From assembly GCA_934255515.1 (NCBI GenBank), contig CAKQON010000031.1, forward strand, positions 1-18,084: DNA of 18,084 nucleotides. The letters are read 5' to 3'. Origin of the DNA: an uncultured Sutterella sp. Lineage in GTDB: Bacteria; Pseudomonadota; Gammaproteobacteria; Burkholderiales; Burkholderiaceae_F. The translations under genes were made by a program, and so were the position numbers. The notes under the pieces are model-generated. The model was not told the DNA's origin, did not search any database, and worked only from the letters and a program-made list of their open reading frames with translations. Below are positions 10,447-14,172 of this stretch, in pieces. Position 1 is the stretch's first letter. Every line of letters starts with the position of its first letter.

Positions 10447-11394
10447 ATGACTCTTACTGAACTTAAGTACGTCATTGCAGTTGCCCGGGAACGGCACTTC
10501 GGCCGGGCAGCAGAAAGCTGCTTTGTGAGCCAGCCGTCGCTTTCCGTTGCCGTGAAGAAGCTCGAGGAGGAGCTCGGCGTTTCGATTTTCGAGCGCCGCT
10601 CCAACGACATCGCCGTCACGCCCGTCGGCAGCCTCATCATCGATCAGGCCCGCAAAGTCATTGAAGAAGCTCACCGGATCACGGAAATCGCCCACCAGGG
10701 CCAGGATCCGCTCTCGGGTCCCGTGCGCCTCGGCGTCATCTATACGATCGGGCCCTATCTGCTTCCGGACCTCATCAGCCGCATGACGGAAACGACGCCG
10801 CAGATGCCTCTGATTCTTGAGGAAGGCTTCACGTCCGAGCTCCTGCAGAAGCTCCGCAACGGCCAGATCGACGTGGCCATCACGGCTGACACGCTCGTCG
10901 ATACGGGCTTCATGACCGAAGAGCTCTACGAGGAAAACTTCGTTGTTGCCGTGCCCTCCCACCACCCCTGGGTCAACCGCAGCTACATCGGTACGGATGA
11001 ACTGAAGGACCAGACGATGCTTCTTCTCGGCGCCGGTCACTGCTTCCGCGATCAGATTCTCGGCGTCTGCCCGGACCTCGCGCGCTTCAACCTCAACGCA
11101 ACCGACGTTCAGAAGACGGTTGAGGGCTCGAGCCTTCAGACGATCTTCCATATGGTTGCTCAGGGTCTCGGCATCACGGTGCTGCCCGCCTCGGCCATTC
11201 CTTATCTCACGGGACTCTCGAACGCCATCAAGATTCTCCCCTTCAAGAATCCGCCGCCCACCCGCAAGGCGATGCTCGTCTGGAGAAAGAGCTTCACGAG
11301 GATGGCCGCAATCGAAGCCATCCGCGAGGCGACGCTTTCACTTAAGCTCAACGGCTGCGCGCCGCTTCCTGAAAGCCACCCCGAGATGCGCTAA
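10447..11394 (+). CDS. oxyR: Hydrogen peroxide-sensing LysR-type regulator OxyR
   Basis: OxyR activates peroxide-defence genes after forming an intramolecular disulfide. The N-terminal winged helix-turn-helix (about 1-60) includes AAESCFVSQPSLSVAVKKLE. The two redox cysteines sit at C199 and C208 in GHCFRDQILGVC, the same numbers as in E. coli OxyR, which separates it from other LysR proteins such as CysB or catabolic regulators. The length (315) is typical. It begins 59 bp after recG with no clear ribosome-binding site. The usual divergent catalase or peroxiredoxin target is not next to it. The iscB element begins 25 nt after its stop codon. Confidence 0.95.
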   Translation: MTLTELKYVIAVARERHFGRAAESCFVSQPSLSVAVKKLEEELGVSIFERRSNDIAVTPVGSLIIDQARKVIEEAHRITEIAHQGQDPLSGPVRLGVIYTIGPYLLPDLISRMTETTPQMPLILEEGFTSELLQKLRNGQIDVAITADTLVDTGFMTEELYEENFVVAVPSHHPWVNRSYIGTDELKDQTMLLLGAGHCFRDQILGVCPDLARFNLNATDVQKTVEGSSLQTIFHMVAQGLGITVLPASAIPYLTGLSNAIKILPFKNPPPTRKAMLVWRKSFTRMAAIEAIREATLSLKLNGCAPLPESHPEMR

Positions 11395-11403
11395 CCCGCA
11401 GTC

Positions 11404-11419
11404 TGATACCTGAGACACC
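11404..11419 (+). other. Predicted native guide segment of the omega RNA
   Basis: In characterised IscB loci the guide of about 16 nt is the flanking sequence immediately 5' of the omega RNA scaffold. Here that segment is TGATACCTGAGACACC, lying between the oxyR stop and the first scaffold stem. The expected match is the unoccupied insertion site in related strains. The exact boundary is uncertain by a few bases. Confidence 0.4.
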
Positions 11420-11678
11420 GTCAATCTACCCTCGGCTGAAGCCGAAGGCTTGTAAAAACAAGTCTTGGTTGACTAGTCCCAGTAATCCGAACGGATAAAA
11501 CCGCAAGGAGAACTACGTTGGTTGGGAATCCATAGGCACCGCGGGATGTACATCCTAGTCCCGCGCTCTGCGGCAGGTGATTAAAAGCTCTGAGGGAAAG
11601 GAGCGGTGTCCCCTGCATCAAACCCCTTCCAACATCGACGAAGGATGCTTACTGCCCGAAAGGGCATGGGGACAAAAC
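11420..11678 (+). ncRNA. IscB omega RNA scaffold (HEARO RNA)
   Basis: This stretch folds into the ordered stems expected of a HEARO/omega RNA directly upstream of iscB. P1 is GTCAATC (11420-11426) with GGTTGAC (11467-11473), closing two hairpins: TCGGC-TGAA-GCCGA (11432-11445) and CTTGT-AAAA-ACAAG (11449-11462). Next, TCCCA/TGGGA (11477-11481 with 11523-11527) encloses ATCC-GAAC-GGAT (11485-11496). Then CACC/GGTG (11537-11540 with 11576-11579) encloses GCGGGA/TCCCGC (11541-11546 with 11559-11564). Last, GTCCCC/GGGGAC (11608-11613 with 11668-11673) encloses CCTTC/GAAGG (about 11625-11644) and GCCC-GAAA-GGGC (11654-11665). The pairing was done by eye. The 3' end meets the iscB start. Confidence 0.82.
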
Positions 11679-12944
11679 TTGAGAGTATTTGTTACCAACC
11701 AGCGTGGCAAACCCTTAATGCCATGCTCTCCTGCAAAGGCACGCGTGCTTCTGCGGGAAAAGAAGGCACGCGTGAAGCGCCGCACTCCCTTTACGATTCA
11801 GCTCACGACGGCAACGGGCGAAGCCAGGCAGGACGTCTCTCTTGGAGTTGACGCCGGCTACAGGCACGTAGGTCTCTCGGCTTCCACCGAAAAGGCCGAA
11901 CTCTATGCCAGTGAAGCAGTACTGCGCGACGACATCACGGATCTCCTGTCAGCGCGTCTGGCGCTGCGGCGAGCTCGCCGCAATCGCAAGACCCGTTATC
12001 GGGCTCCAAGGTTCAGCAATCGAGTTCACAGCAAGAACAAGGGCTCGCTTGCGCCATCGGTCGGGCACAAAATAGCCTCGCACCTGAAGCTTGTCGAAAA
12101 TGTCTGCCGGCTACTGCCTGTGACGAAGATCACGGTGGAAACCGCGAGCTTCGATATGCAGGCTATTAAGAACCCGGACATTAAGGGCGCAGAGTATCAG
12201 CAGGGCGAACAGCTCGGCTTCTGGAACGTGCGCGAGTACGTTCTTTGGCGTGATGGTCATCAGTGCCGGCACTGCAGAGGGAAGTCCGGAGACCCGATAC
12301 TGAACGTGCATCATCTCGAAAGCCGGCGCACCAGGGGCGACGCCCCCAATAACCTCGTGACGCTCTGCGAGACGTGCCACAAGGCATATCACGCAGGTCG
12401 GATCGACCTGAAGCTGAAGCGCGGCAGATCCATGAGGGCAGAAGCCTTTATGGGCATCATGCGGTGGACGTTCTTCAACCTGCTGAAGGAGAGTCACTCT
12501 GACAAAACAGTTGAGAACACGTACGGCTATTTGACGAAGAACACGCGCATCACGCACGGGATTGAGAAATCCCACTGCGCCGATGCGTACTGCATTGCCG
12601 GCAACCTGCGCGCCGAGCGTCTTCCTGAATTTCTGTTTCAAAAACAGGTACGAAAGCACAATCGTCAGATACACAAAATGACGATCGGCAGGGGCGGCAT
12701 TCGCAAGCGGCAGCAAACGCCGTTCGAGGTGAAGGGCTTCCGTCTGTTTGACAAGGCGCGCCTTGGCAGCGAGGAGGGCTTCATTTTCGGAAGAAGAAGC
12801 AGCGGTTATTTTGACGTTCGTCGGCTTGACGGACAAAAACTCTCGGCCGGCGTCAGTTTTAAGAAACTGCATCTGCTCGAAAAACCAACCACTTACCTGA
12901 AGGCGCTCCTCCCTCGTCTCAAGACGAAGGTTTCCGCACCTTAA
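11679..12944 (+). CDS. iscB: IscB RNA-guided HNH/RuvC endonuclease
   Basis: IscB is the compact ancestor-like relative of Cas9 that cuts DNA under omega RNA guidance. With the TTG start at 11679 (GGGGA 6 nt upstream) it has 421 residues. Domains in order: PLMP domain (about 1-42, PLMP at 12-15); RuvC-I LGVDAGYRHVGLSA with D58; Arg-rich bridge helix (about 97-116); RuvC-II ITVETASFD with E154; HNH (about 183-238) with zinc cysteines C196, C199, C230 and C233 and catalytic NVHH (H211/H212); RuvC-III KSHCADAYCIAG with H299 and D302; and a basic C-terminal target-interaction domain (about 320-421). All catalytic residues are present, so the nuclease looks intact. There is no REC lobe, so it is not Cas9. 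An in-frame ATG at 11577 would add 34 residues but lies inside the omega RNA. Confidence 0.92.
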   Translation: MRVFVTNQRGKPLMPCSPAKARVLLREKKARVKRRTPFTIQLTTATGEARQDVSLGVDAGYRHVGLSASTEKAELYASEAVLRDDITDLLSARLALRRARRNRKTRYRAPRFSNRVHSKNKGSLAPSVGHKIASHLKLVENVCRLLPVTKITVETASFDMQAIKNPDIKGAEYQQGEQLGFWNVREYVLWRDGHQCRHCRGKSGDPILNVHHLESRRTRGDAPNNLVTLCETCHKAYHAGRIDLKLKRGRSMRAEAFMGIMRWTFFNLLKESHSDKTVENTYGYLTKNTRITHGIEKSHCADAYCIAGNLRAERLPEFLFQKQVRKHNRQIHKMTIGRGGIRKRQQTPFEVKGFRLFDKARLGSEEGFIFGRRSSGYFDVRRLDGQKLSAGVSFKKLHLLEKPTTYLKALLPRLKTKVSAP

Positions 12945-12951
12945 TGAATCT

Positions 12952-14172
12952 ATGAAAGAGCAGACGACAGAAACGCACAAGCCCGCAACCAGTCCTCTGA
13001 CGGGCGCCCGCAAGCGCCTCTCAAGGATTGCCTCCGGGCGAGGCATCGGGTTCGGCGAACGCATCGACCTGATCGTTCGCATTGCGCTTATGGCTGTAGT
13101 GGCGATCGGTTGCTTCATGGTGCTTCAACCCTTTCTCACTGCGATTCTTCTTGCCGCCGTCATCGCCGTCGTCACGTGGCCGCTCTTCAGGCGGCTGCGC
13201 GCGTCCCTCCGGCAGTCCTCGGGCGCTGCGGCAACCCTGATGGTGCTCCTCATCGTGGTCGGCTTCCTGATCCCGATGTCGTTTCTTCTCGTCGCGCTCG
13301 CCCAGCAGATTCCTTCCTGGGTGACGAAGACCGCCGCCTGGCTCAAGGACCCGACCCCGGTGCTTCAGGCCGTCGCCGACATTCCCTATGCAGGCTCGTG
13401 GCTCCATGAGCAGCTCGCGCTCGCGATCGACCCGGCGACTTTCGGTCATACCGTCCAGCGCATCCTCGATCCGCTCTCAAGCTGGATCGTCAATGCCGCC
13501 GTCAATGTCGGCAACGGTCTGGTTCAGCTCGCGCTCGTCACCTTCATTGTCTTTTTCTTCTACCGCGACGGCGCATGGTTTGCCGACCGGATTTCCGAAC
13601 TTGTCGAACGCGTATCGGGCGGTATTGCGAGAGAAATTACCGGGATTCTCGTCAACACCACGCGCTCGGTCGTCTTCGGCATCGTCGGCACTGCCATCGG
13701 GCAGGGGCTTGTTGCCGGCATCGGCTTCTGGATCGCCGACGTGCCCGGCCTTCTCGTCCTCTCCTTTGCCGTCTGCGTCCTCTCCGTCATTCCGATCGGG
13801 CCCCCGCTCATCTGGGGGCCGGCCGCCATATGGCTCTATACCCAGGGCGAACTCGGGATGGCCGTCTTTCTCGTTCTCTGGGGAACGCTCGCAGTTTCGA
13901 GCGTCGACAATTTCATCAAGCCGATCCTGATTTCCCGGGGAACGTCGATGCCCATTGCGCTCATCTTCCTCGGCGTTTTCGGCGGCGTCCTCGCCTTCGG
14001 ATTCCTCGGCCTCATCCTCGGGCCGCTCCTTCTTGCCATCGGCCTTGCACTATTCACCGCCTGGCTGAAGCGCCCAGTCATTCGGCTTGCTGAAGCTGCC
14101 GTCTCCCGCACTGACAAAGAAGCCCCAAACGTCGCCGAGGCCGCGGACGCATCCGAATCGAAGATTCAATAG
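12952..14172 (+). CDS. AI-2E family transporter-like membrane protein (YdiK/PerM type)
   Basis: This 406-residue polytopic inner-membrane protein belongs to the AI-2E transporter family (includes TqsA, YdiK and PerM), whose substrates are mostly unknown. Hydrophobic segments appear at about 40-85, 95-125, 175-205, 235-300 and 310-375. YdiK-like features are FMVLQPFLTAILLAAVIAVVTWPL near the N terminus, the FFYRDG segment, PIGPPLIWGPAAIWLY, SSVDNFIKPILISRG and FGFLGLILGPLLLAI. The soluble N-terminal 35 residues and the C-terminal tail are charged. No ribosome-binding site precedes the ATG, which lies 7 nt after the iscB stop, so insertion of the iscB element may have replaced its original translation signals. 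Substrate not assignable from sequence. Confidence 0.85.
   Translation: MKEQTTETHKPATSPLTGARKRLSRIASGRGIGFGERIDLIVRIALMAVVAIGCFMVLQPFLTAILLAAVIAVVTWPLFRRLRASLRQSSGAAATLMVLLIVVGFLIPMSFLLVALAQQIPSWVTKTAAWLKDPTPVLQAVADIPYAGSWLHEQLALAIDPATFGHTVQRILDPLSSWIVNAAVNVGNGLVQLALVTFIVFFFYRDGAWFADRISELVERVSGGIAREITGILVNTTRSVVFGIVGTAIGQGLVAGIGFWIADVPGLLVLSFAVCVLSVIPIGPPLIWGPAAIWLYTQGELGMAVFLVLWGTLAVSSVDNFIKPILISRGTSMPIALIFLGVFGGVLAFGFLGLILGPLLLAIGLALFTAWLKRPVIRLAEAAVSRTDKEAPNVAEAADASESKIQ

Follow-up and report, generated by a model that had tools for sequence, protein, structure and literature searches.

An uncultured Sutterella sp. carries, between an oxyR-like and a ydiK-like gene, a locus which a preliminary description had read as an intact IscB-omega RNA system, and the question that it raises is how an RNA-guided nuclease gene of this kind came to lie there and what its position means for the gene that follows it. 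The locus was analysed within a stretch of 18,084 nucleotides (contig CAKQON010000031.1), called the window in the following, and in genomes of relatives, which are designated by G numbers, and their loci by L numbers. With high confidence, it is explained as an intact-looking IscB element of the IS200/IS605 type that has no transposase of its own and separates the ydiK-like gene's leader from its start codon; the element would be moved by a TnpA supplied in trans, the host leader would serve as its guide and IscB would recut the empty site. What the preliminary description overlooked is that the system, as far as sequence comparison can tell, is a discrete mobile element of 1532 bp, the site of which is empty in relatives and the guide of which is host DNA.

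Boundaries of the element and its empty site

The left neighbour is a LysR-family, oxyR-like regulator (10447-11394, forward strand; PF03466, PF00126) and the right neighbour a ydiK-like AI-2E transporter gene (12952-14172, forward strand; PF01594), whose match to NF008216 reaches 166.8 bits, below the cut-off of 305; the flanking genes had been named correctly. The oxyR-like gene is found in 12 of 12 Sutterella genomes, in all of which it shares one contig with the ydiK-like gene and the matched parts of the two lie only 28-161 nt apart, which leaves no room for the element. Also in agreement with the preliminary description, which proposed a gut proteobacterium, the nearest named record is Sutterella seckii, which itself has an IscB copy with 94% protein identity. 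At positions 1-244 of the window, on the reverse strand, tRNA-Gly(gcc), tRNA-Cys(gca) and a second tRNA-Gly(gcc) follow each other in series, with both Gly genes scoring alike.

The ends of the element were placed by comparison with the empty sites of two relatives, G001, which is the nearest genome compared and shares 44% of sampled words with the window, and G008. The window reads ...GATACCTGAGACACC/GTCAAT...AATGAATCT/ATGAAAGAGCAG (slashes mark the junctions) and the empty site of G001 reads ...GATACCTGACACAAC/ATGAAAGAGCAG; in G008 the site is empty at the same place, but the leader is different. Because of these junctions, the element is taken as 11420-12951, 1532 bp in length and exactly 5' of the ydiK-like ATG, and 11404-11419 as host DNA, of which 14 of 16 letters are shared by the empty site of G001 (two mismatches to the guide). 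The right end at 12951 lies 7 nt past the iscB stop, and both empty sites indicate an insertion without target duplication. The bases that follow it, ATGAAA (12952-12957, forward strand), are the same at the empty sites of G001 and G008 and would be both the target-adjacent motif (TAM) and the start codon of the ydiK-like gene; ATGAA is found 3' of the copies L001 and L002 too.

The ATG at 12952 is likely to be the start codon in question, judging from the ydiK-like protein, whose identity to the proteins of G001 (97%) and G008 (95%) extends from residue 1, while the matches in the other 10 genomes of the genus begin at residues 8-32. The profile match begins at residue 40, which corresponds to profile position 13, and since the N-terminus is therefore 27 residues longer than the profile, an alternative start keeps a small probability. 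According to the list of open reading frames, iscB is the sole long gene between the element ends on its own strand. No Y1 transposase lies inside the window's element, the Y1_Tnp domain having been met in separate elements of relatives, and no transposase-like gene was recognised when the lists of the window's reading frames were read by eye, in agreement with the reported lack of a transposase partner nearby.

The omega RNA and the IscB protein

The covariance model HEARO (RF02033) matches 11420-11652 on the forward strand with 120.1 bits, against a gathering score of 83 (E 8.6e-25), and over model positions 1-211 of 211. The RNA was therefore located correctly in the preliminary description, except for its start at 11404: the scaffold and the element (left end GTCAAT) both begin at 11420, and 11404-11419 belongs to the flanking host DNA. 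The guide of IscB systems immediately precedes the RNA scaffold on its 5' side, and the TAM is found 3' of the target. Given this arrangement, the 16 nt at 11404-11419 (forward strand), which the empty site of G001 places outside the element, are presumed to be the guide.

The iscB gene (11679-12944, forward strand, stop included) encodes 421 amino acids and probably starts at TTG 11679, the most plausible start, 27 nt past the end of the HEARO match; the stop is TAA at 12942-12944, and a longer reading frame with a GTG start at 11577 would overlap the omega RNA. Its product matches the Pfam families RRXRR (PF14239, 210.7 bits) and HNH (PF01844, 27.7 bits) and, over residues 3-306, the NCBIfam equivalog guided_IscB (NF040563), with 348.8 bits against a cut-off of 175. 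Fifteen distinct sequences of solved structures are matched, the top seven of which are named IscB, while the rest include an IscB fusion, IsrB and Cas9-like chains. Aligned with two solved IscBs, the RuvC and HNH motifs named in the preliminary description fall on equivalent places (LGVDAG/LGIDPG, TVETASF/VLELNRF, NVHHLE/HYHHVV and EKSHCADAY/PKDHYLDAY). Compared with its two nearest relatives, iscB has dS values of 0.295 and 0.311 and dN values of 0.026 and 0.031, and the resulting dN/dS of 0.09 and 0.10 argues that the protein is maintained by purifying selection. With the family profile (PLMP, split RuvC, bridge helix, HNH) and a HEARO directly upstream, both of which are the marks of an IscB, the locus is an intact-looking IscB-omega RNA system.

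Element ends and mobilisation in trans

Both ends of the element carry predicted hairpins. The left, subterminal one (11429-11448), which is of the IS200/IS605 type, is at the same time the first hairpin of the omega RNA (z -3.1 for the minus-strand DNA fold). At the right end, a two-tier hairpin (12900-12942) is predicted with z -2.2 as RNA and -1.9 as DNA, and covaries in 39 right ends of relatives; in the window's copy, one pair of the outer stem is broken. Hairpins at both ends, a short fixed target and the absence of a duplication make this an element of the IS200/IS605 type.

A tnpA element with the window's right end was not found in 41 genomes. Apart from a weak match to G004 over 29 nt, this end has matches only to the IscB copies in G001 and G008, and in these two genomes the tnpA elements examined have ends different from the window's. 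Shared ends do occur in G027, which belongs to the same family but to another genus: over 55-57 bp, six tnpA loci (L213-L218) match an IscB element's right end, reverse-complemented, with 89-100% identity. The shared end includes TTCAT in 6 of 6 copies, two of them at 100% identity, and the tnpA elements read TTCAT/AGAAATTCC..., the mirror image of the IscB right end ...GGAATTTCT/ATGA. Besides Y1_Tnp, these elements carry a second gene with OrfB_IS605 and Cas12f1-like_TNB domains and are thus of the tnpB type; similar tnpA-tnpB elements are present in G005 and G003. Since ends are shared with tnpA-tnpB elements in this related genome, the absence of a local TnpA can be understood there, and mobilisation in trans by such a TnpA is the likely reading. 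As far as the portion consulted of PMC9755519 goes, the IscB group commonly has no local TnpA.

Copies in relatives

G001 and G008 each contain one 94%-identical IscB at loci other than the window's, and G008 additionally a distant one (43%). The DNA similarity of L001, L002 and L031 to the window is confined to 11419/11420-12957/12959; with near copies elsewhere and its own site empty throughout the genus genomes compared, the window's element is not a fixed resident. A point against the preferred explanation is that the near copy is single in both G001 and G008, which gives no sign of recent movement within the window's own subfamily. The missing tnpA element with the window's right end, the two guide mismatches to the empty site of G001 and the different leader of G008 count against it as well. 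In G027, two internally deleted iscB copies, L266 (779 bp) and L267 (596 bp), keep both ends and lie 5' of ATGA.

Several arrangements around other copies deserve mention. The IscB copy of G008 is surrounded by 430-bp inverted repeats (L002, 352-781 and 3092-3522), which match a stretch beside the tnpA element L205 at 100%. In Sutterella wadsworthensis, two HEAROs lie in tandem (L037, 2019-2239 and 3709-3929) along with two iscB matches; a Quinella contig has a second HEARO about 330 nt upstream of that belonging to iscB itself (L040, 3225-3437), and another second HEARO lies at 7649-7880 of L039. Solo omega RNAs were considered as a class in G027 and rejected: a first pass scored 11 of 35 candidates, and the 9 further HEARO places then examined all contain at least a piece of iscB (in L271, 24 residues only).

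A family-wide preference for gene starts

The position of the window's element directly before an ATG was compared with that of related insertions from Sutterellaceae, Firmicutes and other loci. From 100 loci with a right end, 90 distinct flanks were obtained, and hand exclusion of L030, L045, L059, L064, L096 and L102 left 84 distinct insertions; boundaries were moved by hand in 9 loci, and the offsets of the window and L002 were adjusted by one base. Both ends are available for 67 of the 84, and 66 of these are without N and form the testable set. On restored empty sites, an ATG was counted as a gene start if it opens an ORF of 60 codons or more and has an in-frame stop at most 30 codons upstream, and the remaining ATGA or ATGGA sites of these flanks served as null sites; the gene calls are crude, and related copies are not independent of each other. 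The boundary rule seeks ATGA, ATGG or GTGA, and for this reason counts of the flanking five-mers are partly built in; independent support for the boundaries comes from the empty site and from copies of one element that part exactly there.

Gene-start positions account for 36 of 66 insertions and for 422 of 4155 null sites (P 1e-18), and outside called genes the excess persists, with 33/54 against 226/918 (P 4e-8). A Shine-Dalgarno-like core is present in the 20 bases to the left of the element in 35/66 insertions, compared with 847/4611 null sites (P 4e-10), and the guide would therefore often include the ribosome-binding site of the displaced gene. For several products, picked as recognisable out of 20 proteins scanned, the start of the profile match coincides, or nearly so, with the flank ATG: residue 1 falls on profile position 1 in LeuD, SerC, LplT and NikR, residue 2 on position 2 in HisA, residue 4 on position 2 in RapZ and on position 1 in LolC/E and NtrC, and residue 3 on position 5 in signal peptidase I, for which this model scores slightly below its cut-off and a second signal peptidase model above.

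The genome of G027 provides the densest set of examples. There, an ORF of at least 60 codons follows 18 of 21 copies, and 12 of the 16 two-ended copies pass the strict gene-start test. IscB elements directly precede lepB and serC, for neither of which a second match exists in G027, and one directly precedes lolC/E, which has a single further match, a weak one (E 7.6e-5); in Escherichia coli, both lepB and lolC/E are essential. The same genome has an IscB element before a YdiK-like gene (L274, 394-1563, reverse strand), an independent insertion at the type of gene affected in the window. Relatives favour gene starts, and the window's place before ydiK is one case of this family-wide bias. The first description of HEARO reportedly noted insertion 5' of ATGA or GTGA, and this target may already be published; at the level of titles and abstracts, no report of start-codon insertion by IscB elements, or of a ribosome-binding site carried by them, was found.

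A candidate spare ribosome-binding site at the right end

The right-end hairpin is preceded on its 5' side by AGGAG or GGAGG in 59 of 84 insertions. Counted along the sequence, a median of 52 nt separates this motif from the host ATG, and predicted folding of the hairpin reduces the unpaired distance to a median of 9 nt (10-90%: 6.8-12). An unpaired distance of 5-13 nt is predicted for 33 of 36 motif-bearing right-end families, compared with 46% for shifted placements, that is, for the motif moved through all positions between about -100 and -29 of these right ends (P 1e-8). The motif is concentrated near the end of the element, being found in 41/104 of the last two 60-nt segments versus 76/922 inner ones (odds ratio 7.2). 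Coding is no explanation for it, since each of the three iscB frames contains it and 8 of 36 families have it after the iscB stop. Compensatory changes were seen in 13 of 13 predicted pairs of the hairpin among 39 aligned right ends, with 1-12 sequences per pair broken or gapped; 17 loci of odd length or with doubtful ends were left out of this alignment, and L053 is misaligned in it.

The tnpA-tnpB elements of the same end type offer a comparison, since AGGAG/GGAGG is absent at that end from 9 of 9. In the three genomes that have both kinds of element (G027, G005 and G003), 4/9 tnpA-tnpB elements and 27/32 IscB elements stand before an ORF of at least 60 codons (one-sided P 0.025); for G027 alone, the figures are 2/6 versus 18/21 (P 0.024), and the samples of tnpA-tnpB elements are small in both comparisons. 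The window's copy, L001 and L002 are without AGGAG/GGAGG, and in the window's copy and its two nearest relatives the iscB stop lies 7, 7 and 4 nt before the ATG. In right ends generally, for instance in L186, AGGAGG could be masked by pairing with a conserved TTCCTCC in the hairpin, and a switch is conceivable. The right flanks of L059, L081 and L096 have no right-end hairpin and carry GGAGG directly 5' of the flank ATG, either from the element or from the gene itself.

These observations suggest a tentative reading, to which slightly less than an even chance is given in view of the negative controls described below, that the IscB elements of this branch are start-codon specialists which compensate their host. 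With the start codon as both target and TAM, they would enter between leader and ATG, borrow the host promoter for the guide and omega RNA and supply a Shine-Dalgarno sequence of their own by way of the hairpin, so that even lepB and lolC/E tolerate the insertion; in the window's copy, this substitute would have been lost or replaced by a coupling to the iscB stop.

Proposed mechanism and alternative explanations

In the preferred explanation, a TnpA provided in trans would move the element as single-stranded DNA. Transcription from the host side would then yield an omega RNA with the host leader (11404-11419) as its 5' guide, and IscB with this RNA would cut a resealed empty site, in which the guide sequence is followed by ATGAAA as the TAM, whereupon repair from the sister copy would restore the element; this course is modelled on what is known of the IscB family. 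The element would tend to sit between leader and ATG, in the same direction as the gene, because its target contains the start codon. In many relatives, the Shine-Dalgarno-like motif and the right-end hairpin could permit translation of the host gene, whereas the ydiK-like gene of the window, being without the motif, would have to rely on weak initiation or on the iscB stop located 7 nt before its ATG.

The bias and the right-end signals can also be accounted for without any service to the host, if ATGA is simply common at gene starts, insertions that break genes are lost, and GGAGG and the hairpin serve TnpA recognition or coding and not host translation. This alternative is a serious one, falling just short of an even bet. 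It is in keeping with the window's copy, L001 and L002, which do without the motif, and with the finding that the motif shows no association with gene-start position: the expectation that motif-bearing IscB elements are commoner at gene starts found no support (25/45 with the motif, 11/22 without; Fisher P 0.80), and the contrast with the 9 tnpA-tnpB elements is the single comparison that points in this direction. A selected coupling of the iscB stop to the host ATG found no support either: the iscB frame has a stop in the interval from -4 to +7 nt around the host ATG in 14 of 51 families, no more often than the other frames (12 and 17). The right-end hairpin occurs in tnpA-tnpB elements too, so that selection at the DNA level, through TnpA recognition, could explain its covariation, and GGAGG could pair with TTCCTCC. 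It is harder to reconcile with the gene-start excess outside called genes, with a motif found in three frames and beyond the stop, with tnpA-tnpB elements that have the hairpin, uniformly do without the motif and lie less often before ORFs, and with insertions directly before lepB and lolC/E in a genome that has no other strong homologue.

Two further alternatives concern the window's copy itself. A domesticated, immobile IscB, retained by the host, for example to regulate ydiK or oxyR, would fit the low dN/dS and the one near copy per genome (G001, G008), but these near copies occupy different loci, all 12 genus genomes compared lack an insertion at the window's site, the ends of the element are intact and the catalytic motifs are retained, which makes domestication improbable. 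Still less credible is an inactive relic, or a chance reading frame beside an RNA-like fold; the broken pair in the outer right-end stem would suit it, whereas a full-length HEARO of 120 bits, a full-length IscB and a dN/dS of about 0.1 speak for an intact-looking IscB element.

Significance and comparison with known systems

The window's system is itself of a known kind, namely an IscB in an IS200/IS605-type element, and its value lies in being compact and apparently intact, with exact ends, an expected guide and TAM and an empty site, which make it directly testable. Of greater importance than this copy is the pattern of the family, in which insertion at start codons is combined with a candidate compensating ribosome-binding site. 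If the compensation were real, a transposon-borne, structure-bridged ribosome-binding site would represent a simple, non-splicing way to harmless insertion. It would likewise account for the way in which an element with an external guide acquires a promoter and would give ATGA-type TAMs a natural rationale, and it suggests that the natural guides of such IscBs are perhaps often gene leaders.

Among characterised systems, OgeuIscB (PDB 7UTN, 7XHT) resembles the window's in protein family, RNA family and the order of guide, RNA and ORF. It differs in the length of its chains, 495-496 amino acids versus 421, and for the window's element exact ends, an empty site and a start-codon target are defined here. 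The part seen of PMC13180657 gives the TAM classes NTAAA and NWRRN for OrufIscB and NWRGNA for an engineered OgeuIscB, and the expected TAM ATGAAA is compatible with the NWRRN class. The IS605 tnpA-tnpB elements of G027, G005 and G003 share with the IscB elements the TTCAT target and one hairpin end, about 50 bp of which are identical in G027; in contrast to them, they carry tnpA and a TnpB-type gene, have no GGAGG at the end (9/9) and lie less often before an ORF.

For the proposed bridging of a ribosome-binding site, a precedent exists in genes 38 and 25 of phage T4, in which, according to the portion consulted of PMC3014915, structure between the Shine-Dalgarno sequence and the AUG shortens the spacing from 22 to 5 and from 27 to 11 nt, respectively. 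The effect is experimental in T4, while the shortening at IscB right ends (median from 52 to 9 nt) is predicted, and the signal of the IscB elements would be brought to many genes by a transposon. A likeness also exists to the IStrons, as far as they are presented in the excerpt available of PMC4227781, since in both a feature of the transposon RNA could make the insertion harmless to the host gene; IStrons do so by self-splicing, whereas the IscB elements possibly supply a signal for the start of translation.
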